Assembly (NCBI RefSeq): GCF_016811075.1
Contig: NZ_JAFBGL010000004.1
Location: forward strand, 124,001 to 188,000
From: Oceaniferula flava
Lineage (GTDB): Bacteria; Verrucomicrobiota; Verrucomicrobiia; Verrucomicrobiales; Akkermansiaceae
DNA: 64,000 nucleotides
Direction of reading: 5' to 3'
This document shows positions 8,589 to 28,112 of this stretch, in pieces. The notes beneath the pieces were generated by a model. It was not told the DNA's origin. It ran no database searches and saw only the letters and a list, made by a program, of their open reading frames with translations. Position 1 is the stretch's first letter. Each line of letters starts with the position of its first letter. The position numbers and the translations under genes are program-made.

Positions 8589-8744
8589 TTACGCCTCTGG
8601 CTTGGTTTTAGGAAGGCCGATTGGGCTCTTACCTTTTTTCCATTGGCCGCGTTCCTTGAGGAGCTTAATGCGTTCGAAACGCTTAAGAACCGAACGCTTG
8701 CCGCCGGCTCCACCGGATACTTTGAGAGATGCGTGTTTAGACAT
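8589..8744 (-). CDS. Small basic protein of the Chlamydiae/Verrucomicrobia type
   Basis: 51 residues, strongly basic, starting M-S-K-H-A-S-L-K-V and containing K-R-S-V-L-K-R-F-E-R-I and G-L-P-K-T-K-P near the end. This matches the short basic protein family conserved in Chlamydiae and Verrucomicrobia (I recall it as TIGR04137), whose function is unknown. The gene lies 36 bp after rpsI and before the operon terminator, so it is expressed with ribosomal proteins. Size, charge and context suggest an rRNA- or ribosome-associated protein; that part is inference. Confidence 0.88.
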   Translation of the reverse strand: MSKHASLKVSGGAGGKRSVLKRFERIKLLKERGQWKKGKSPIGLPKTKPEA

Positions 8745-8780
8745 AATTCGTTAGTGTATAAGGTTGGATATTGGCTGGGA

Positions 8781-9176
8781 TTAGCGTTTGGAGAACTGGA
8801 ACTTCTTACGTGCACCAGGCTGACCGTATTTCTTACGCTCTTTCTGGCGGGGGTCACGACGCATCAGGCCGACTTCCTTGAGGGCGGGACGAAGTTCTTC
8901 GTCGTGCTCGCAGAGGGCGCGGGAGATGCCGAGGCGGATGGCTCCAACTTGACCGGAAATGCCGCCACCTTTGGCCACGACTTTGACGTCAAATTTCTTG
9001 AGGAGATTGGATTTTTCGAATGGTTCGAGCACTGAGTTCTGGAGAGTCAGGGTAGGAACGTATTCTTCGAAAGGTTTGTTGTTGATCGTGATCTCGCCGG
9101 TTCCGGCGGTGACCCAGACGCGGGCGACGGATGTCTTGCGACGACCAGTGGCGCAGTATGTAGTTGCTTCGCTCAT
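8781..9176 (-). CDS. rpsI: 30S ribosomal protein uS9 (S9)
   Basis: 131 residues. A small-subunit head protein whose C-terminal tail reaches the P-site tRNA. It has the family hallmarks: A-T-G-R-R-K-T-S-V-A-R-V near the start, G-G-G-I-S-G-Q-V-G-A-I-R-L-G-I-S-R-A-L in the middle, and the basic end R-D-P-R-Q-K-E-R-K-K-Y-G-Q-P-G-A-R-K-K-F-Q-F-S-K-R with the terminal S-K-R. It follows rplM by 37 bp, the near-universal gene order. Confidence 0.98.
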   Translation of the reverse strand: MSEATTYCATGRRKTSVARVWVTAGTGEITINNKPFEEYVPTLTLQNSVLEPFEKSNLLKKFDVKVVAKGGGISGQVGAIRLGISRALCEHDEELRPALKEVGLMRRDPRQKERKKYGQPGARKKFQFSKR

Positions 9177-9213
9177 GAGAATGTAAAATTTAAAGTGTTA
9201 GGTAAGTGGATAA

Positions 9214-11790: not shown

Positions 11791-12957
11791 ATGGACTCCA
11801 TTTCATCACGCGTTGATAAGGTCGCCCCTTCGCTCACACTTTCTGTCACGAACCAAGCCAAGGCCATGAAGGCGCGCGGCGAAGAAGTTTACGGACTGGC
11901 CGGTGGCGAACCGGATCAGGACACCCCCGATTTTATCAAACAAGCCGCCATCGACGCGCTCAACGAGGGAAAGACCAAATACACCCCTGCCGCCGGCATC
12001 CCCGAGCTGCGTGAGGCCATCGCTGAAAAACTGAAGACCGACAACGGCATCGACTACGACCCGCGCCAGATCGTGGTCAACAGCGGCGCCAAGCAATCCT
12101 GCTTCAATGCCATCCTTGCCGTCGTGGAAGAAGGTGACGAGGTCATCATCCCCGCTCCTTACTGGGTCAGCTATCCGGAAATGGTCCGCCTTGCAGGTGG
12201 TATTCCCGTGATCGTGGAAACCACCGCGGAAAACGATTGGAAACTCACCCCCGAGCAGTTCGAGGAGAACATGACCGGCCTGACCAAGATGATCATCCTG
12301 AACACTCCTGGCAATCCCACCGGCTCCGTTTACAGCGCGGATGAGCTCAAGGCTCTGGGTGAAGTGGCCCTCTACGAGGACATCATCATCCTCTCCGATG
12401 AAATTTACGAGCACCTCGTCTACGGCGAGACCAAGCACACCAGCATCGCCTCGCTCAGCAAGGACCTCTACGATCTCACCATCACCGTCAACGGCTTCTC
12501 CAAAGCTTACTCGATGACCGGATGGCGCATCGGCTACACCGCTGCTCCCAAGCCGCTGGCTGATGCCATTTCCAAGATTCAGGGTCACACGACCTCGAAC
12601 GCCACCACCTTCGCCCAGTATGGCGCCCTCGCCGCCCTGGCTGAAGGCAAGGACTTCATCAAGGACCTGAATGCTGAATACGATGTCCGCCGCCAGTTTG
12701 TGCACGGTCGCCTCAGCGCCATCAACAACATCAAAGTGGTCGAGCCCAAGGGTGCCTTCTACTGCCTGGTGGACACCACTGACCTCGGACTGAAATCCGT
12801 CAACCTCTGCGACAAGTTGCTCACTCGTTACCGCGTTGCCGCCGTTCCTGGTATCGCTTTCGGAAACGACAACAGCATCCGCATCAGCTACTGCACCACC
12901 CTCGACGTGCTCAACGAAGGCCTGAGCCGCTTCGAGGAATTCTGTAAGGCGCACTAA
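11791..12957 (+). CDS. Pyridoxal-phosphate-dependent aspartate-type aminotransferase (class I, subgroup Ib)
   Basis: 388 residues from the ATG at 11791; the frame extends upstream to 11602, but that part overlaps prmA and has atypical composition. It transfers the amino group of aspartate (or another amino acid) to 2-oxoglutarate. N-T-P-G-N-P-T-G (171-178), S-D-E-I-Y-E, and S-K-A-Y-S-M-T-G-W-R with the PLP lysine at 238 are all present. The subgroup Ib signature and length match the AspC/AAT enzymes of thermophiles, Rhizobium and the PVC group. Aromatic or glutamate-prephenate activity cannot be excluded. A strong terminator follows at 12999. Confidence 0.9.
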   Translation: MDSISSRVDKVAPSLTLSVTNQAKAMKARGEEVYGLAGGEPDQDTPDFIKQAAIDALNEGKTKYTPAAGIPELREAIAEKLKTDNGIDYDPRQIVVNSGAKQSCFNAILAVVEEGDEVIIPAPYWVSYPEMVRLAGGIPVIVETTAENDWKLTPEQFEENMTGLTKMIILNTPGNPTGSVYSADELKALGEVALYEDIIILSDEIYEHLVYGETKHTSIASLSKDLYDLTITVNGFSKAYSMTGWRIGYTAAPKPLADAISKIQGHTTSNATTFAQYGALAALAEGKDFIKDLNAEYDVRRQFVHGRLSAINNIKVVEPKGAFYCLVDTTDLGLKSVNLCDKLLTRYRVAAVPGIAFGNDNSIRISYCTTLDVLNEGLSRFEEFCKAH

Positions 12958-19597: not shown

Positions 19598-20557
19598 ATG
19601 GCAAAGCCCGACAAAGCAGAAACAAGTAAACGCCGCTCCGAAACCAAGCGTGACTACGCTGGCATCCTCCCGAAAAAAGGATGGCCGCGTAGAAACTATC
19701 ACTTCTTGCGCAGGCGACTGCTGCCCCAGATGTTCAAAAAAAGCGACGGCACCGTGCGGGAGCCGATCCCCCATCCGCCGGAGGAGGGAAAAATCCGCGT
19801 CACCTGGATCGGCCATGCTTCCTTTCTCGTCCAGTTTGCCGATCACTCGGTGATCATCGATCCCAACTGGGCGAACTGGCATGGCGTGGTCAAGCGACAG
19901 CGCGTGCCGGGGCTCGACCTCAGCCTGATGCCCCTGGTCGATCTGGTGATGGTCACCCACGCCCACTTCGACCACCTGCACAAACGCAGCCTGAAAATCC
20001 TCGAGTCCCACGAGGGCATCGTGGTCCCCCAAGGCAGCGGCTCACTGGTGAAACGCCTCGGTTTCAAGACCGTGCACGAAATGTCCGTCTGGGATGAATT
20101 AAAGTTTGGCGATCTCAATGTCACCCACACCCCCAGCCACCACTGGGGTGCCCGCTACCTGCACGATACTCACCGCGATTACGGCGGTTACATGATTTCC
20201 TCCGGTGTGAGTAAGGTATTCCACTGTGGCGACAGCGCCTACTTCGAGGGCTTCAAGGAAATTGGCAAACATCACACGCCAGACGTCGCGCTGATGCCGA
20301 TCGGTGCCTACGATGCGCCCAGCGGCCGCGACGTGCACATGAACCCGGAGGAAGCGGTGCGCTCATTCATCGAGATGAAAGCCGGCATCCTAATCCCCAT
20401 GCACTACGGCACCTTCCCCCTGGGCAATGAGCCTGATCACGAACCGGTAGAACGCCTGGTGGCCGAGGCAGAGCGTCTCGGTGTGGCCGATCGCGTGCTC
20501 GTGCTGGAGGAAGGCATCGGTATCGAGGTTGAGTGCTTGGCGGAAACAAAATCTTAA
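19598..20557 (+). CDS. MBL-fold metallohydrolase, NAPE-PLD/UlaG-like
   Basis: 319 residues with no signal peptide but a basic N-terminal 45 residues. The zinc-site motif H-A-H-F-D-H is at 121-126. T-W-I-G-H-A-S-F (68-76), P-S-H-H-W-G-A-R, F-H-C-G-D-S-A-Y and I-P-M-H-Y-G-T-F complete the pattern of N-acyl-phosphatidylethanolamine phospholipase D-like or UlaG-like hydrolases. The first group acts on phospholipids, which would fit a membrane-associated role; the actual substrate is unknown. It is followed after 40 bp by the C39-like protease gene on the same strand. Confidence 0.83.
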   Translation: MAKPDKAETSKRRSETKRDYAGILPKKGWPRRNYHFLRRRLLPQMFKKSDGTVREPIPHPPEEGKIRVTWIGHASFLVQFADHSVIIDPNWANWHGVVKRQRVPGLDLSLMPLVDLVMVTHAHFDHLHKRSLKILESHEGIVVPQGSGSLVKRLGFKTVHEMSVWDELKFGDLNVTHTPSHHWGARYLHDTHRDYGGYMISSGVSKVFHCGDSAYFEGFKEIGKHHTPDVALMPIGAYDAPSGRDVHMNPEEAVRSFIEMKAGILIPMHYGTFPLGNEPDHEPVERLVAEAERLGVADRVLVLEEGIGIEVECLAETKS

Positions 20558-20597
20558 TTTTCAGAGAAAAGCTGCATCCTCGAACGCTCTTTATATC

Positions 20598-21899
20598 ATG
20601 ATCAAAGCCGCCGTTTTCAGCCTCACTCTCAGCGCCCTCAGTCTGGGCTCCGTGCTCTCGGCCACTCCGGCGCGCGATCTCGATATCCTGTTCATGGATG
20701 CCAAGATGTGGGATCAACCGATCGCTGAAGTGCTGAACAAGCGCAGCCACCTGGCGTTCCGCTGGCTGTCCAAGGAGAAACGTGACGCCCGTTCCAATGT
20801 CAAAGGCCTGCAGCTGTGGTCGCTCCCCGTCGGCGAGACCATCCTCCGCAGCCAGGAGGGAAAGCTGCACTCGTTCGAGGTCTCGATCTACAACCGTGGC
20901 GACATGGGCGTGATGAAAAACGAAGATTTCAAGCAGCTCACCGAGAAGTGGCACGGGCTGATTGCCGCCAAGACCGGCATTGATGGCGAAAAAATGAACC
21001 GCACTCAAAAAGGCAGCGTTGTCTCGGCGAACCGTTGGCTGTGGGAGTGCCCCGGCGCCTACATCGCCCTGACATCCAGCGCCTCAGGATACGGCACTGG
21101 CAAACGGCCTGAGTTCCTCAAACTCACTCTAGTGTCGGTGAAGTTTGGCCGCGAGATGTTCTCCGGACGAGGCGGCATCACCAAGAGCATGAGCCGCCGC
21201 TCCGAGCTGAAAGATTCCGTGGAGGAAAAAGACAATGGCGACCGAGTCATCGCCGGCGTGCCAATGGTCGATCAAGGTCGCAAAGGTTACTGCGCGGTGG
21301 CCAGCGCCGAGCGTGTGTTCCGCTATTACGGACTGCAGGTGGATCAGCATGCCATGGCTCAAATTGCCCAAAGTTCCGCCCAGGGAGGCACCAATCCGGA
21401 TAGAATGGTGGCATCGTTAAAACGCGTCGCCGGTCGCACCAAGACCCGACTGCACGTGCTCTATGAAATTGACCACCGCGAGGCTGAGTCCGACATCAAG
21501 GATTACAACCGAGTGGTCAAAAAAACTCGCCTAGCCCCCGAGTTCCCGATGAGCAGCGGCTACTTTTCTTTCCAACAGTTCCTCTCCGTTTGTCACCCGG
21601 CTACGCTGAAAGCCGTCCGTTCAAAAGGCACGAACTACGATCGATTCAAAAAAGCAATTCACGATAAAATCGACGAAGGAATCCCTCTCCTCTGGGCACT
21701 CCAAGTCGGGGTGATCAAAGAAAAAGGCATCCCCCAAGCCGGTGGCGGGCACATGCGCCTGATCATCGGCTACAATGAAAAAACCGATGAGATCATCTAC
21801 ACCGATTCCTGGGGCCCCGGTCACGAATACAAACGGATGAAAACTCCCGATGCCTTCGCTCCGAGCATGCACTTGATCACCATCAAGCCATCATCTTAG
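20598..21899 (+). CDS. Exported C39-like cysteine peptidase domain protein
   Basis: 433 residues from the ATG at 20598; the frame continues upstream into the MBL gene but with atypical composition. A signal peptide (about 1-22, ending V-L-S-A) predicts export. Residues about 30-200 are of unknown type. The C-terminal half is a papain-like C39-type domain: P-M-V-D-Q-G-R-K-G-Y-C-A-V-A-S with Cys232, G-G-G-H-M-R-L-I-I-G-Y with His385 and Y-T-D-S-W-G with Asp403, the classic Cys-His-Asp set plus an upstream Gln226. No ABC transporter is fused or adjacent, so it is not a bacteriocin-leader exporter. Substrate unknown. Confidence 0.75.
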   Translation: MIKAAVFSLTLSALSLGSVLSATPARDLDILFMDAKMWDQPIAEVLNKRSHLAFRWLSKEKRDARSNVKGLQLWSLPVGETILRSQEGKLHSFEVSIYNRGDMGVMKNEDFKQLTEKWHGLIAAKTGIDGEKMNRTQKGSVVSANRWLWECPGAYIALTSSASGYGTGKRPEFLKLTLVSVKFGREMFSGRGGITKSMSRRSELKDSVEEKDNGDRVIAGVPMVDQGRKGYCAVASAERVFRYYGLQVDQHAMAQIAQSSAQGGTNPDRMVASLKRVAGRTKTRLHVLYEIDHREAESDIKDYNRVVKKTRLAPEFPMSSGYFSFQQFLSVCHPATLKAVRSKGTNYDRFKKAIHDKIDEGIPLLWALQVGVIKEKGIPQAGGGHMRLIIGYNEKTDEIIYTDSWGPGHEYKRMKTPDAFAPSMHLITIKPSS

Positions 21900-21908
21900 C
21901 GCCAGTCT

Positions 21909-23672
21909 TCACTCACCTGCCTGCCCCTTGGGTAACATGTTAGAGTCGCTGAGTGTTTTCAGAAAAGCGACCAATGCCCGCTGATCCTCCTCGGAAAGCC
22001 CCAGCCCCTGAGGGTGTTTGGCTAAGTTAGGATCGAGGGTTTCCGAGAGCTCGGGTGCGGCATTGTAGTGATCGATCACCTGCTCGAGCGTGGCGAAGCG
22101 GCCGTCGTGCATGTAGGGTTCTGTTAGGGCGATGTTGCGCAGGCTCGGGGTGGCGAACTTGTGGCGATCGCTTGTTTTCCCAGTGGTCTCCTCGAGGCCG
22201 AGGTCATCGCCGGAGGCAAGGCCGTTGTTGTGGAAGGCATGATCGGTGAACAGGGCACCGCCGTGGCAGTGGAAGCAGTCGGCCCCACGTTTGCCGAGGC
22301 GAGGTTCGGACTCGGTGAAGAACAGTTCAAAGCCGCGCTTTTCCTGATCTGTTAGTGTGGCTTGCCCCTTGTGGGCACGATCCAGTTTTGAATCAAAACT
22401 GAGACGTGTGAGCAGGAAATTTTCAATCGCGAGGCCGATATTCTCCGGGGTGATTTTTCCAGAGCCAAAGGCGGCGGCAAAGAGCGGCGGGTAGCTGGGG
22501 TCGGCCTTGAGCTTGGCGGCGACCCGATCCAGCGATTCATCCATCTCGAGATGGTCCTCGATTGGGATCAATGCCTGGGCACGCAGTGTGGGAGCTCGGC
22601 CGTCCCAGAAGAAGCTGGATTTCCAAGCGAGATTGAACAGTGGCATGGAGTGGCGCCGGCCAAGTTCACCATCGACTCCCGGACTCAAGCGGCGGGGATC
22701 GCTGAGGGTTTCACCCTGGTGGCAGGAGGCGCAGGAAATGCTGTTGCTGCGCGAGAGCTTGGGCTCGCGGAACAGCTTTTCACCGAGGGCGACGCGCGTT
22801 GTTAGAACCGGGTTATCACTCGGCAGCGCAGGTAGTGGTATGTGTTTCGGCAGGGTCAGCGGGTAGCCCTTGGGATGGGCTGGCAGGTCGATGGGGGCGG
22901 GCGGGTTAGGCTTCGTGGGGATGCCGCCACGGTGAATGCCGGTGATGCGAAATGCCGATGGCAGATTGGACTTCAGCCGGGCGGCGACCGGATCACCGTC
23001 GCTGGAGTGGGTGGTGCTGCCGTCTTGGGCAAAGGACAGACCTGTTAGAACCTTGTTGGCATCCAGAGCGATGCCGACCCGGGATTCATCGCGCAGGTTC
23101 AGATGGACCGGTAGCGTGATCTTGCAGCGATTGGCATCGCGCGCGAAGTGGTAGGCAAAACCACCGGGAAGCTTCTGCCCGGCTGCGCGCCAGTGGCCTT
23201 CGAGTGCCAGAAAGATATACCCGCCCTGCCAGTCCCAGTGCAAGCGGTTGACGTTCGGGTTGAGCGGATGACTGGCCGCGTAGCTGGCGGGATCCGAGTG
23301 GTTGCTTTTCCGATCAGGGCCGACGTGAAAGCTGATCGCCGTGATCGTTTCCGAAGGGAGATTGGGGAGGGTGAGCGTAGTGCCGCGTGTCGGGATGAAG
23401 GCGCTGGCGGACGGCAGGGTGATGGTTTTTCCGGCGCTCGTGGTCAGGGAAAAATCGGAGGCTAACCAATCGATGCGGGTCAGCGAGAAGGTTTCGCTCC
23501 GCGAGTTCTGGTAACGCAAGGAGTCGATCCGCAGTGGCCGGCCATCGATTTCATGAGAGAAGTCCAGGTGCAGCGAGCCCCCCAACACCGACGGTGCTAC
23601 CAGCATCGCGAACAGCAGCATGCCGCCTGGGCGGGCGGCAAACTGATGGCAGGATGGAAGGAAACGGGGCAT
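21909..23672 (-). CDS. Exported MbnP-like copper-binding domain fused to a diheme cytochrome c peroxidase (MbnH/MauG-like)
   Basis: 587 residues. After a signal sequence (about 16-32), residues about 33-245 match MbnP: F-H-V-G-P-D near 115, H-P-L-N near 135 and H-W-D-W-Q-G-G-Y-I-F at 145-154, where in MbnP a tryptophan is oxidised to kynurenine to bind copper. Residues about 275-580 are a diheme peroxidase with C-A-S-C-H at 314-318 and C-F-H-C-H at 466-470, plus F-W-D-G-R and Y-M-H-D-G-R-F. In known systems MbnP and MbnH are separate neighbouring genes, MbnH being the MauG-like enzyme that modifies MbnP; here they are one chain. It follows the YHYH gene by 69 bp. Confidence 0.85.
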   Translation of the reverse strand: MPRFLPSCHQFAARPGGMLLFAMLVAPSVLGGSLHLDFSHEIDGRPLRIDSLRYQNSRSETFSLTRIDWLASDFSLTTSAGKTITLPSASAFIPTRGTTLTLPNLPSETITAISFHVGPDRKSNHSDPASYAASHPLNPNVNRLHWDWQGGYIFLALEGHWRAAGQKLPGGFAYHFARDANRCKITLPVHLNLRDESRVGIALDANKVLTGLSFAQDGSTTHSSDGDPVAARLKSNLPSAFRITGIHRGGIPTKPNPPAPIDLPAHPKGYPLTLPKHIPLPALPSDNPVLTTRVALGEKLFREPKLSRSNSISCASCHQGETLSDPRRLSPGVDGELGRRHSMPLFNLAWKSSFFWDGRAPTLRAQALIPIEDHLEMDESLDRVAAKLKADPSYPPLFAAAFGSGKITPENIGLAIENFLLTRLSFDSKLDRAHKGQATLTDQEKRGFELFFTESEPRLGKRGADCFHCHGGALFTDHAFHNNGLASGDDLGLEETTGKTSDRHKFATPSLRNIALTEPYMHDGRFATLEQVIDHYNAAPELSETLDPNLAKHPQGLGLSEEDQRALVAFLKTLSDSNMLPKGQAGE

Positions 23673-23741
23673 GGAAGTCTAGGAGTCGGTAGGGCTGAAA
23701 ACTGACAAGCTCCCACCCAAGTCCTCCTTTCGCGGTTGATC

Positions 23742-25394
23742 TTACGGCCCCAGAGGCGGACCTCCCGGACCACCCGGATCGCCACCACCGGCAGCGGCGG
23801 CAGAGCTGAACTCGGTGTCATCGTAGGTCGAGAGGCCGATTTGGTAAAGCCGGTAGAAACGCTGGGTGGTGAGGGCATCGGTCGCCTCGATGTAATTGGA
23901 GGTGGCGGTGAAACTGGCTGCGGTTTGATCGAAGCTGCTGAGATCGTCCGAGGTTTCAACCCGGTAGACTCCGCCTTCGACCCCCTTCCAGGTGATGGTG
24001 ACGTTGCCATTGTCTACCTGGGTGGCGGCGTTGCTGGGGCTGGTGTTGGCAGCGCCGTCAAATTCCACAGTGACTCCGCTCGTCTCCACTTCCGAACTGG
24101 CGATGCCGGCGGCGAGCGTGGCATCACCAAAGTACTGGTAGGCAAGATTGTAGGGATAAGCGGGGGTTCCGTCCTCCTCAACACTGGTGAAGTATGCCCA
24201 GGTTCCGTTGGGAAATTCAGGGGTGACACACCAGCGCACGTTGTAGGCATTCAAATCATAGTGACGGGTGGCATCAAAGTTGCCTTGGTTGGTGGGGTCC
24301 GTGTAGGATTCAAAAGTGGCGCCCGAGCTGTCTGAAACAAGATCCCCCTTGAAGGCATAGTCTTCCATGTAGTGACCCAGGATGAAGCTGCTGCTGACAT
24401 TGGGGCCGTATTGCGAGGATGATAGAGCGGTGCTGCTGCGTTGCCCTTGGGTCACCGTCCACTGGGGCAGGGAGTGACGCCCTGTGCTGCTGAGGTCTGT
24501 GCTGCCGTTGCTGCCGTCGCGTTTTTGATATCCGGAAATCATCCGACGCACGGTGCTGTTAGGATCGAGAGGATCGCTGTAACCGTAGGGGCCATACATC
24601 GGCAGTCCATCGTTGACCCACGCGATGATCGGCGAGTGCTTGCCGTTGAAATTTTCCGTGTAGGGGCTGGCTTGACCGATGCCTTGGTAGACCACCGTGG
24701 AATCGTAATCCACCGAATCGCCAAGCCTGGATCGGAGTGCCGTGGGGCTGGCGTGGTAGTGAAATGCCTCCATCGCCTGGTGGGCATTTCCGGCATCGAA
24801 GCTGACGCCCTCGTTGACAAAGGCATCACGATTCCAGTAACCATCGCCGACGTTGCTATTGGTCGGTTCCTGATCGCCGCCGGCGGAGGTATCGTAGGAA
24901 AAGGTATCGCTGGTGTTGAAAAGCGGCACGCCATCGACGAAGAGGCCGCAGGTGCCGATGTTAGTTTCTGTGCGCGAAGCGGGGGCGTAGCTTTGCGGGT
25001 AGTTAGTGCTGCGAGGGAAGCGATAGAGGATGGCGGCATTTCCTGGAAATGAGGGAAAGGCGGTGGTGCGGGCGGCATTGAGAAACCAGGGTCCCATGGT
25101 GTTGGTCGCCAGGCCGGTGGATTTGATGTAGACGTAGCTATTGGAATAAGAAATCCCCTGCACCCCGGCGTAGACGGGTTCCGTCTGATCTCCGACGGTC
25201 ACGCCATCGTAATCGGTATAATCCCAGGTGGTCAGTGAGCTTTCCCCACCACCACCTCGCTCGGTGATTTCTTGTTCTTGGGTCGCCCAGATCCGGGCAT
25301 ATCGTCCGGAGTCCGCCGTGTGCCACGAAGTGATGATCGGCTCGGCCGCCGCAGCGCCAGCCAAGGCAAAAAAGATGATAGTAATGGATTTCAT
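23742..25394 (-). CDS. Exported YHYH-domain protein
   Basis: 550 residues with a clear signal peptide (about 1-18, A-G-A-A-A-A). A-F-H-Y-H-A-S-P near residue 212 is the namesake motif of the YHYH family, and G-L-P-M-Y-G-P-Y-G-Y shortly after is its second conserved block. From about 440 to 520 a beta-sandwich module follows (Y-R-V-E-T-S-D-D-L ... R-F-Y-R-L), then a Gly/Pro tail. Function is not established. It is the first gene of a likely operon with the MbnP-peroxidase fusion, which hints at copper handling or oxidative chemistry in the envelope. Its start codon is one base from a 25-bp palindrome. Confidence 0.85.
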   Translation of the reverse strand: MKSITIIFFALAGAAAAEPIITSWHTADSGRYARIWATQEQEITERGGGGESSLTTWDYTDYDGVTVGDQTEPVYAGVQGISYSNSYVYIKSTGLATNTMGPWFLNAARTTAFPSFPGNAAILYRFPRSTNYPQSYAPASRTETNIGTCGLFVDGVPLFNTSDTFSYDTSAGGDQEPTNSNVGDGYWNRDAFVNEGVSFDAGNAHQAMEAFHYHASPTALRSRLGDSVDYDSTVVYQGIGQASPYTENFNGKHSPIIAWVNDGLPMYGPYGYSDPLDPNSTVRRMISGYQKRDGSNGSTDLSSTGRHSLPQWTVTQGQRSSTALSSSQYGPNVSSSFILGHYMEDYAFKGDLVSDSSGATFESYTDPTNQGNFDATRHYDLNAYNVRWCVTPEFPNGTWAYFTSVEEDGTPAYPYNLAYQYFGDATLAAGIASSEVETSGVTVEFDGAANTSPSNAATQVDNGNVTITWKGVEGGVYRVETSDDLSSFDQTAASFTATSNYIEATDALTTQRFYRLYQIGLSTYDDTEFSSAAAAGGGDPGGPGGPPLGP

Positions 25395-26927: not shown

Positions 26928-27053
26928 CCTATCAATCTAGCAAACATCCCACTGCCTCACCAAGTGTAGATTACGAAAAATGACGCCATGTTGACACTTG
27001 CCTCAGTACACCGAAAGACCATGGTTCTCCTTTCTTTCCCATCATCATTGATT

Positions 27054-28112
27054 ATGCGCGCCCTCATCCACCCCATCATCTCCTGCTCCTTGGCAACCCT
27101 CGCCAGCCTCCCTCTCAGTCATGCCCACGAGGGCCACGATCATCCACCGAAGGGTGAGGCGCTGACCGAGGTGCTACACACCGGCTCGGGAGCGTTTACC
27201 TATCGGACAGTGCCAGGCTTCGGCCAGCTCCCAGATGGCGCCAAACTCGGCCCGACACACGGAGGTGTGGCGGTCGATGCCAAGGGCCTGATCTATGTGA
27301 GCACCGACGGTGAAAAGTCGCTCTGTGTGTTCAAACCCGACGGTAGCTTCGTCCGCGCCATCGCCTCGCCAGCCCAAGGAATCCACGGCATGCAGATGAT
27401 CACCGAGGGGGAGCAACAATTCATCTACGGGGCGCAGCTCAATAGCTACGGTAAGAAAAACAAGCACAAGCGTGCCGTGAAGCTCGATCTCTACGGTAAC
27501 ATCGTGATGCAAATCCCTAACGAGAACACCGGCGACATCCCCGGAGGGACGAAGGGAATCACTGGCATTGCCGTGGCGCCAAACGGACACATCTACGTCA
27601 GCATGGGCTACGGCTCCAACCTCATCCACCAGTTTGACCAGACGGGAAAACGCATCAAGTCCTTCGGTGGCCGCGGCAAGGAGAAGGAAAAATTCAAGAC
27701 CTGCCACGGGTTGGGAATCGACACCCGCTTCGGCGCCCCCCGCCTGCTGGTGTGCGACCGTGAAAAGCGCCGCCTGATCCACCTCGACCTCGATGGCAAT
27801 TGGATCGGCGAATACGCCACCGGCCTGCGCCGCCCTTGTGCAGTCAGTTTCCACGGCGACCACGTGGCAGTGGCTGAACTCGAAGCGCGGGTGGTCATTT
27901 TAGACAAACAGGGCAAGCAAGTCTCCGTGCTCGGCGATAACCCGAACAAGAAGCAGTGGGCGAATTTCCGCGTCGCTCCCAAGGACCAGAAAGTGGGTAT
28001 CTTCACCGCTCCTCACGGGCTGAGCTTTGATCAGGCGGGCAATCTCTACGTCCAGGATTGGAACACCTCAGGACGCGTCAGTAAGTTGCTGTTAGTTCCA
28101 GCCACCGACTGA
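27054..28112 (+). CDS. Exported NHL-repeat/6-bladed beta-propeller protein
   Basis: 352 residues from the ATG at 27054, which gives a standard signal peptide (ending L-S-H-A); upstream ATGs at 26988 and 27021 are less likely. A His-rich segment H-E-G-H-D-H follows the cleavage site and might bind metal. The body repeats V-D-A-K-G-L-I-Y-V-S, V-A-P-N-G-H-I-Y-V-S, H-L-D-L-D-G and similar strands, giving about six propeller blades of the NHL kind. It ends G-L-S-F-D-Q-A-G-N-L-Y-V-Q-D-W. Ligand or enzymatic role unknown. Confidence 0.75.
   Translation: MRALIHPIISCSLATLASLPLSHAHEGHDHPPKGEALTEVLHTGSGAFTYRTVPGFGQLPDGAKLGPTHGGVAVDAKGLIYVSTDGEKSLCVFKPDGSFVRAIASPAQGIHGMQMITEGEQQFIYGAQLNSYGKKNKHKRAVKLDLYGNIVMQIPNENTGDIPGGTKGITGIAVAPNGHIYVSMGYGSNLIHQFDQTGKRIKSFGGRGKEKEKFKTCHGLGIDTRFGAPRLLVCDREKRRLIHLDLDGNWIGEYATGLRRPCAVSFHGDHVAVAELEARVVILDKQGKQVSVLGDNPNKKQWANFRVAPKDQKVGIFTAPHGLSFDQAGNLYVQDWNTSGRVSKLLLVPATD

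Follow-up and report, generated by a model that had tools for sequence, protein, structure and literature searches.

The locus described here raises the question of whether a copper-binding substrate domain and the diheme enzyme that modifies it can be carried on one chain, and what such a protein would do. In a 64,000-nucleotide stretch of Oceaniferula flava DNA (the window), a minus-strand gene at 21909–23672 encodes, from an ATG start, a protein of 587 amino acids. A first-pass annotation had described it as an MbnP-like domain joined to a MauG/MbnH-like one behind a YHYH-family gene, and had noted the motifs HWDWQGGY (at residues 145–152), CASCH and CFHCH. All three motifs are found in the translation, the first at the stated place and the other two at residues 314–318 and 466–470, and Pfam, followed by structure matching, agrees on both halves. 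The one-chain arrangement of MbnP and MbnH domains, the W-x-W motif, the histidines that could form a copper site and the counterparts of the MauG Tyr, Trp, Gln, Pro and Glu are strongly supported by alignments and modeling. We predict that the fusion is a self-maturing, exported copper protein of the kynurenine type, and we consider this reading probable.

The fusion scores 100.5 bits against the Pfam MbnP model PF20243 (cut-off 27; E-value 1.5e-28), and the match spans residues 32–219 (23016–23579, minus strand, as are all parts of the gene). The second half scores 170.8 bits against CCP_MauG, PF03150 (cut-off 25.6; 4e-50), over residues 293–438, and 31.5 bits against Cytochrom_C (cut-off 21.3) over residues 464–575, which together place a MbnH/MauG-like diheme domain at about residues 286–585 (21918–22817). 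Between the Pfam matches lies a proline-rich linker (about residues 220–285; 22818–23015), and the first 32 residues or so (23577–23672) resemble a signal peptide, as judged by reading the translation. An AlphaFold model of residues 30–587, built from 77 sequences, has a mean predicted local distance difference test (pLDDT) of 90.8 and a predicted template modeling score (pTM) of 0.88, and such a high pTM for two domains suggests that they pack in a fixed manner. The best Foldseek match in the PDB is 6e1c, a MauG-like protein of microbial copper homeostasis (MbnH), at 2.2e-23. Both halves of this one confident model best match the pair from Methylosinus trichosporium: MbnH (6e1c) aligns over 301 residues with a Z-score of 33.2, a root-mean-square deviation of 2.2 and 38 per cent identity, and MbnP (7l6g) aligns over 210 residues within model residues 1–224 with a Z-score of 17.7, a deviation of 3.4 and 18 per cent identity. 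The structure prediction proposed in the first-pass annotation thus gives two halves that fit the MbnH and MbnP folds, and the N-terminal part was not assigned to another fold, the case which that annotation had named as telling against its proposal.

Conservation was followed in two alignments. The first has 24 rows and comes from a profile search for MbnP in a sample of 387 Verrucomicrobiota genomes, whose rows were not chosen by the W-x-W motif. The second has 77 rows and comes from a named-genome scan in which 432 relatives were confirmed and the best 80 used, all of them titled Verrucomicrobiota; the scan pattern demanded H145, W146, W148 and Y152, and these are therefore invariant by construction in the second alignment. 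When the 24 fusion N-domains were aligned as a profile with five separate MbnPs (probability 99.0, E-value 5e-18), the W-x-W of the fusions fell on the W-N-W of the separate proteins, H175 fell on H204 and H125 on H154. W-x-W is kept in 24 of the 25 fusions of the motif-independent sample, which bears out the motif as a shared one, even though identities to the O. flava N-domain go down to 27 per cent in that sample. In the O. flava protein the motif lies within HWDWQGGY (23217–23240), where Trp146 and Trp148 are the candidates for conversion to kynurenine. Residues H135, H145, W146, H175 and H222, the last beyond the Pfam span, are each found in 24/24 rows, and outside the scan pattern H175, H222 and D227 are found in 77/77 and H135 in 69/77.

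The diheme half carries the residues of a MauG-type enzyme. CASCH (22719–22733) forms the first heme site, which in MauG is five-coordinate, and its Cys314, Cys317 and His318 are kept in 77/77 rows; CFHCH (22263–22277), equally invariant, forms the second, which in MauG is six-coordinate. W356, Q366, E376 and Y536 are found in 24/24 and 77/77 rows, and P370 in 21/24 and 77/77. We take W356, Q366, E376 and P370 to occupy the places of MauG Trp93, Gln103, Glu113 and Pro107; PDB entry titles name MauG mutants at Q103, P107, E113, W199 and Y294. Tyr536 (22065–22067) aligns with the Met of the solved peroxidases 1nml and 2c1u, and the Met that serves as second heme-2 ligand in bacterial cytochrome c peroxidases (bCCPs) is, by this alignment, absent from the fusion. 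Tyr536 is therefore the predicted second axial ligand of heme 2, which agrees with the MauG/MbnH-like domain claimed at first reading. According to the available part of one report, Tyr/His ligation is a feature of MauG and Met/His ligation one of peroxidases (PMC6405878).

It could be argued that the diheme half acts as an ordinary peroxidase or serves electron transfer, that the MbnP half serves for docking or for sensing substrate or copper, and that no Trp is modified. CCP_MauG is a wide family to which plain peroxidases also belong, and BthA, as described in the available part of the same report, is Tyr/His-ligated yet turns over H2O2 (PMC6405878). Sugar-dehydrogenase-like (GSDH-type) genes at six of the fusion loci that lack YHYH would also suit an electron acceptor role. 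However, Tyr replaces the bCCP Met, the nearest structure is MbnH and no bCCP (Z-scores reach 29.6 for MauG entries and at most 29.7 for peroxidases, below that of 6e1c), and W-x-W persists despite the divergence of the N-domains. The fused N-terminal half is also the kind of domain that MbnH modifies. We therefore regard a plain peroxidase as rather unlikely. Many of the peroxidase alignments start at model residue 116 or 117, which correspond to His145 and Trp146, so the W-x-W strand seems to lie on the diheme domain in the place of a peroxidase N-terminal tail, which hints, weakly and indirectly, that the tryptophans may face the enzyme.

A search for the same fusion across Verrucomicrobiota, as suggested in the first-pass annotation, found it repeatedly. 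MbnP occurs in 22 of the 387 sampled genomes, in 27 match rows that represent 26 genes, and 25 of these rows are open frames with an MbnP match and two CxxCH motifs. Of the other two, L028 holds the front part of a fusion gene (L019) with a frameshift, and L024 holds that of a fusion whose halves are parted by transposase-like frames (judged by eye), the MauG tail lying beyond them. Hence 25 of the 26 MbnP genes are this fusion (one of them frameshifted) and the 26th is a split fusion, which rules out an assembly or frameshift artefact and an oddity of one species. In this phylum MbnP is uncommon, but where it occurs it is as a rule fused. Among the 80 best relatives, 79 have both domains in one frame, and the remaining one (L119) ends at a contig end. 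The genome with this split fusion, G121, was considered as a phylum member with separate genes and rejected, as the transposase-like frames (by eye) stand between the MbnP front (8731–9186) and the MauG tail (12001–12543) at its locus L054. In this distant member of the phylum the fusion gene and its YHYH neighbour both seem to be disrupted. In the O. flava genome itself, a profile search found no second MbnP, and a TIGR04039 search gave, beyond the fusion, one weak match of 27 positions (PF03150 was not searched); with just this one other match, the genome has no obvious separate modifying enzyme.

On the plasmids examined the two proteins are encoded apart. Although 373 plasmid records matched, none covered more than 80 per cent of the fusion query, and at the five loci examined (two from Methylocystis and one each from Paracoccus, Trichormus and Ideonella) MbnP and the diheme protein have separate genes that lie side by side. 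Copper genes lie beside such pairs, namely methanobactin genes in Methylocystis and SCO and PCu(A)C in Paracoccus. In public records the diheme genes next to MbnP on these plasmids (L135, L136, L137, L140 and L141) are named 'methanobactin export MATE transporter MbnM'. This is a naming error, because the three tested (L135, L136 and L137) score as MbnH.

The gene upstream of the fusion (23742–25394, minus strand) encodes an exported-looking protein of 550 amino acids that scores 88.5 bits against the YHYH model PF14240 (cut-off 25; 7.3e-25), and the two genes lie 69 bp apart on the same strand, so that the upstream YHYH gene claimed at first reading is confirmed. A weak scan found no promoter-like match in the 69-bp gap. 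The YHYH domain covers residues 141–406 (24177–24974), and its D200, H205, H212, H214 and H253 are all invariant in 51/51 aligned sequences; the first Tyr of the motif that names the family is Phe211 in O. flava.

The two genes are neighbours far more often than expected. A YHYH gene lies within 10 kb of 17 of the 26 MbnP genes, whereas 0.25 would be expected given the gene numbers and genome sizes of the sample, and a YHYH gene is present in all 22 genomes with MbnP compared with 26 of the 365 others, although related genomes are not independent and the Fisher value is therefore too strong. Coincidence is ruled out by the first of these comparisons, with the same reservation on independence, and the YHYH linkage that the first-pass annotation proposed to look for across the phylum is non-random. 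Among 97 distinct fusion loci, 66 have a YHYH gene in the surrounding stretch, within 3 kb at 64 and within 500 bp at 56. Counting same-strand genes no more than 500 bp away, YHYH lies upstream of the fusion at 47 loci and downstream of it at 8; at 8 further loci it is on the same strand but further off, and at 3 it is on the other strand at any distance. In a midpoint-rooted FastTree tree of the fusions, YHYH partners are found on both sides of the deepest split. Because the linkage outlasts the reshuffling of gene order, we argue that YHYH and the fusion function jointly. A frame of 1143 amino acids at L063 was considered as a YHYH domain within the fusion chain and rejected, since it overlaps the YHYH open reading frame in another frame.

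This strong linkage, rearranged yet persistent, could also mean that the diheme domain acts in trans on an aromatic residue of YHYH while the MbnP half carries copper for the finished YHYH protein, and the substrate of MauG itself is a separate protein. However, 31 of the 97 loci have no YHYH gene in the stretch (several of them are cut by contig ends), and the known type of substrate, MbnP, sits in the same chain, which makes action in trans improbable.

A model of YHYH residues 17–440 has a pLDDT of 92.7 and a pTM of 0.92. Compared as a whole with the PDB it gave no match under an E-value of 0.6, and Z-scores were then at most 2.3, which is no proof of a new fold. Viral models of cyanophages and giant viruses do match it, and 389 phage records match YHYH by sequence; the plasmid record search gave no YHYH match. 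A scan of 17 long YHYH proteins showed a sulfatase joined to the YHYH domain in ten (L030, L044, L046, L053, L061, L067, L072, L098, L113 and L119), with the sulfatase first in L046. In L124 (2–4678), YHYH and a multicopper oxidase share one frame, the YHYH part being cut at the contig end. The available part of one study predicts for cyanophage YHYH a metal-dependent hydrolase whose zinc would be held by three His and one Asp (PMC7824862), and no other stated idea of YHYH function was found in the literature searched. The cyanophage tail or base-plate proteins belong to the same Pfam family and share the conserved His and Asp. In contrast to the zinc hydrolase predicted there, the YHYH genes described here accompany a copper-type module and are often joined to a sulfatase. 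Travelling with a copper-type module, and being replaced by a galactose oxidase relative, suggest that YHYH may use copper instead of zinc.

The 31 loci without YHYH in reach fall into seven with a galactose-oxidase-like gene, three with a CusA-like gene, six with a sugar dehydrogenase and 15 with none of these. The galactose-oxidase-like genes (L035, L039, L045 and L049–L052) start 0–23 bp after the fusion and are giant frames of 2.4–2.7 thousand residues, some cut at the locus end. Five of the seven were run against Pfam, and all five have early-set, Kelch and glyoxal-oxidase matches and a further CCP_MauG (diheme) region, four of them with lectin or carbohydrate-binding matches; L049 and L050 were recognised by their similarity to L052. 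All seven have a Tyr-His-Ser motif resembling the one in galactose oxidase and five have T-H-S-x-N-T-D, while the motifs with Cys and the second Tyr were read in just one of them, L052. We presume that these motifs have the roles known from galactose oxidase. In the fusion tree the group arises by one change, without branch support. The CusA-like gene lies 0–37 bp upstream on the same strand at three loci on three separate branches; the CusA family models were applied to one of these, L118, which also has CusB and a multicopper oxidase beyond the CusA-like gene on the upstream side. The six sugar dehydrogenase loci form one clade. Among the less frequent neighbours, a DUF7133-like gene is found at 3 of the 31 loci and a multicopper oxidase at 2 of the 97. 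A sensor kinase and a response regulator like those of L042 occur at 10 and 12 of the 97 loci; a copper label for these two-component genes was dropped, as they fail every specific model listed.

We propose the following order of events for a self-maturing fusion. After export and attachment of the hemes, H2O2 would react at the heme of His318, and the oxidising power would be shared with the heme of His470 and Tyr536 via Trp356. Electrons would then be drawn from Trp146 and Trp148 of the MbnP half, so that one Trp becomes kynurenine, and this kynurenine and two of His135, His145, His175 and His222 would hold copper; which histidines would bind it here is a guess. With less confidence, we suggest that the loaded fusion would supply or manage copper for a secreted partner encoded next door, most often YHYH and in other lineages the galactose-oxidase-like enzyme, the CusA-type pump or the sugar dehydrogenase. 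A role of the fusion in supplying copper to YHYH and to further secreted enzymes is possible and is put forward tentatively. A more extended proposal would make it a copper metallochaperone that, as one chain, forms its kynurenine site by itself and has YHYH as its main client, YHYH then being an unrecognised copper-dependent, perhaps oxidative and polysaccharide-active, family with a PDB-unmatched fold that takes the position held in other lineages by the galactose-oxidase-like enzyme and is also present in cyanophage tails and giant viruses. This proposal is speculative, and on balance we think it unlikely.

Several observations weigh against a self-maturing copper protein modelled on the known pair. 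The fusion scores only 31.6 bits on the MbnP model TIGR04052 (cut-off 140) and 215.1 bits on the MbnH model TIGR04039 (cut-off 362.85), while three of three separate MbnPs pass the former with 275–321 bits and three of three separate MbnHs pass the latter with 441–559 bits. It also fails the MauG model TIGR03791 (195.6 bits, cut-off 443.85), which leaves TIGR04039 as the best NCBIfam model for the second half. On the broader PF20243, which the fusion passes, five of five separate MbnPs score 90–160 bits. Because its scores are far below the NCBI MbnP and MbnH models, the fusion is a relative of MbnP and MbnH outside both named NCBI families and no orthologue of the studied pair. The place of MauG Trp199, which we take to be the residue for electron transfer to the substrate, is Ala464. 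His154 is invariant in the five separate MbnPs, and its counterpart His125 is a His in only 10/24 and 33/77 fusions; this variability counts against a metal site identical to that of MbnP, and if His154 is a ligand, the fusions would use another residue. The six Cys invariant in the separate MbnPs have no counterpart set in the fusions, most of which have no or one Cys in the MbnP half (Cys183 in O. flava), and the divergent fusion L023 has Pro for Trp148. Additionally, 365 of the 387 sampled genomes lack MbnP, copper partners are a minority of the 97 loci (7, 3 and 2 for the galactose-oxidase-like, CusA-like and multicopper oxidase genes), and apart from YHYH the O. flava fusion has, by Pfam, no copper genes as neighbours. 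The interpretation given in the first-pass annotation is partly supported, by the two domain assignments, the W-x-W conservation, the MauG-type heme ligand and the non-random YHYH linkage; the tryptophan oxidation, its course within one chain and the copper binding are predictions.

The missing cysteines, the variable His125, the loss of Trp148 in L023 and the low identity to separate MbnP over the structure would fit a relic, in which an MbnP-like fold without a metal site is kept for stability or cell-surface attachment. This is hard to reconcile with the invariance of H135, H145, W146, H175 and H222 in the motif-independent alignment and the high conservation of H135, H175 and H222 among the pattern-selected relatives, and we consider a relic as improbable as action in trans on YHYH.

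A self-maturing fusion would resemble several known systems in part. With the M. trichosporium MbnP/MbnH pair it shares both folds, W-x-W, two CxxCH motifs and the heme-2 Tyr; the pair is made of two chains, whereas the fusion is a single chain, lacks the MbnP cysteines and adjoins a YHYH gene, and no methanobactin genes were seen near it. With MauG, which acts on methylamine dehydrogenase, it shares the two hemes, the Tyr/His heme, the Trp between the hemes and the Gln/Pro/Glu pocket, and it differs in carrying its presumed substrate as a domain of its own chain and in having Ala at the Trp199 place. In the methanotroph systems CorA/CorB and MopE/SACCP, a kynurenine copper protein is likewise co-encoded with a diheme peroxidase, and the copper ligands of CorA and MopE, according to the available parts of the reports, are kynurenine and two His in a W-x-H arrangement (PMC3912023, PMC3423442). 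Their Kyn62/His64 and Kyn130/His132 are on chains separate from the peroxidase, in contrast to the H-W-x-W of the fusion. Sequences of the CorA/MopE type have no marked likeness to MbnP, as far as the available part of a further report goes (PMC3621798).

No description of an MbnP–MbnH fusion was found in a literature search that reached few subscription papers, and a mention in the main MbnP paper (PNAS 2021) is possible. New to specialists would be a fusion that persists wherever the sampled phylum has MbnP, together with the YHYH linkage. If our reading is true, a substrate fused to its own MauG-type enzyme would turn the conversion of Trp to kynurenine into a one-protein experiment, with no need to catch a transient enzyme–substrate complex, and kynurenine-type copper chemistry would reach beyond methanotrophs into polysaccharide-degrading Verrucomicrobiota. 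The copper-type module would also offer a genomic handle on the role of the widespread, unexplained YHYH domain.

Two other genes in the surroundings may be mentioned. A C39-like peptidase gene on the plus strand (20481–21899; Pfam 1.1e-10) is convergent with the fusion gene and stops 9 bp from its stop. On the other side, past a DUF2851 gene upstream of YHYH, an NHL-repeat protein with the His-rich start HAHEGHDHPP is encoded on the opposite strand to YHYH (26988–28112, plus strand).

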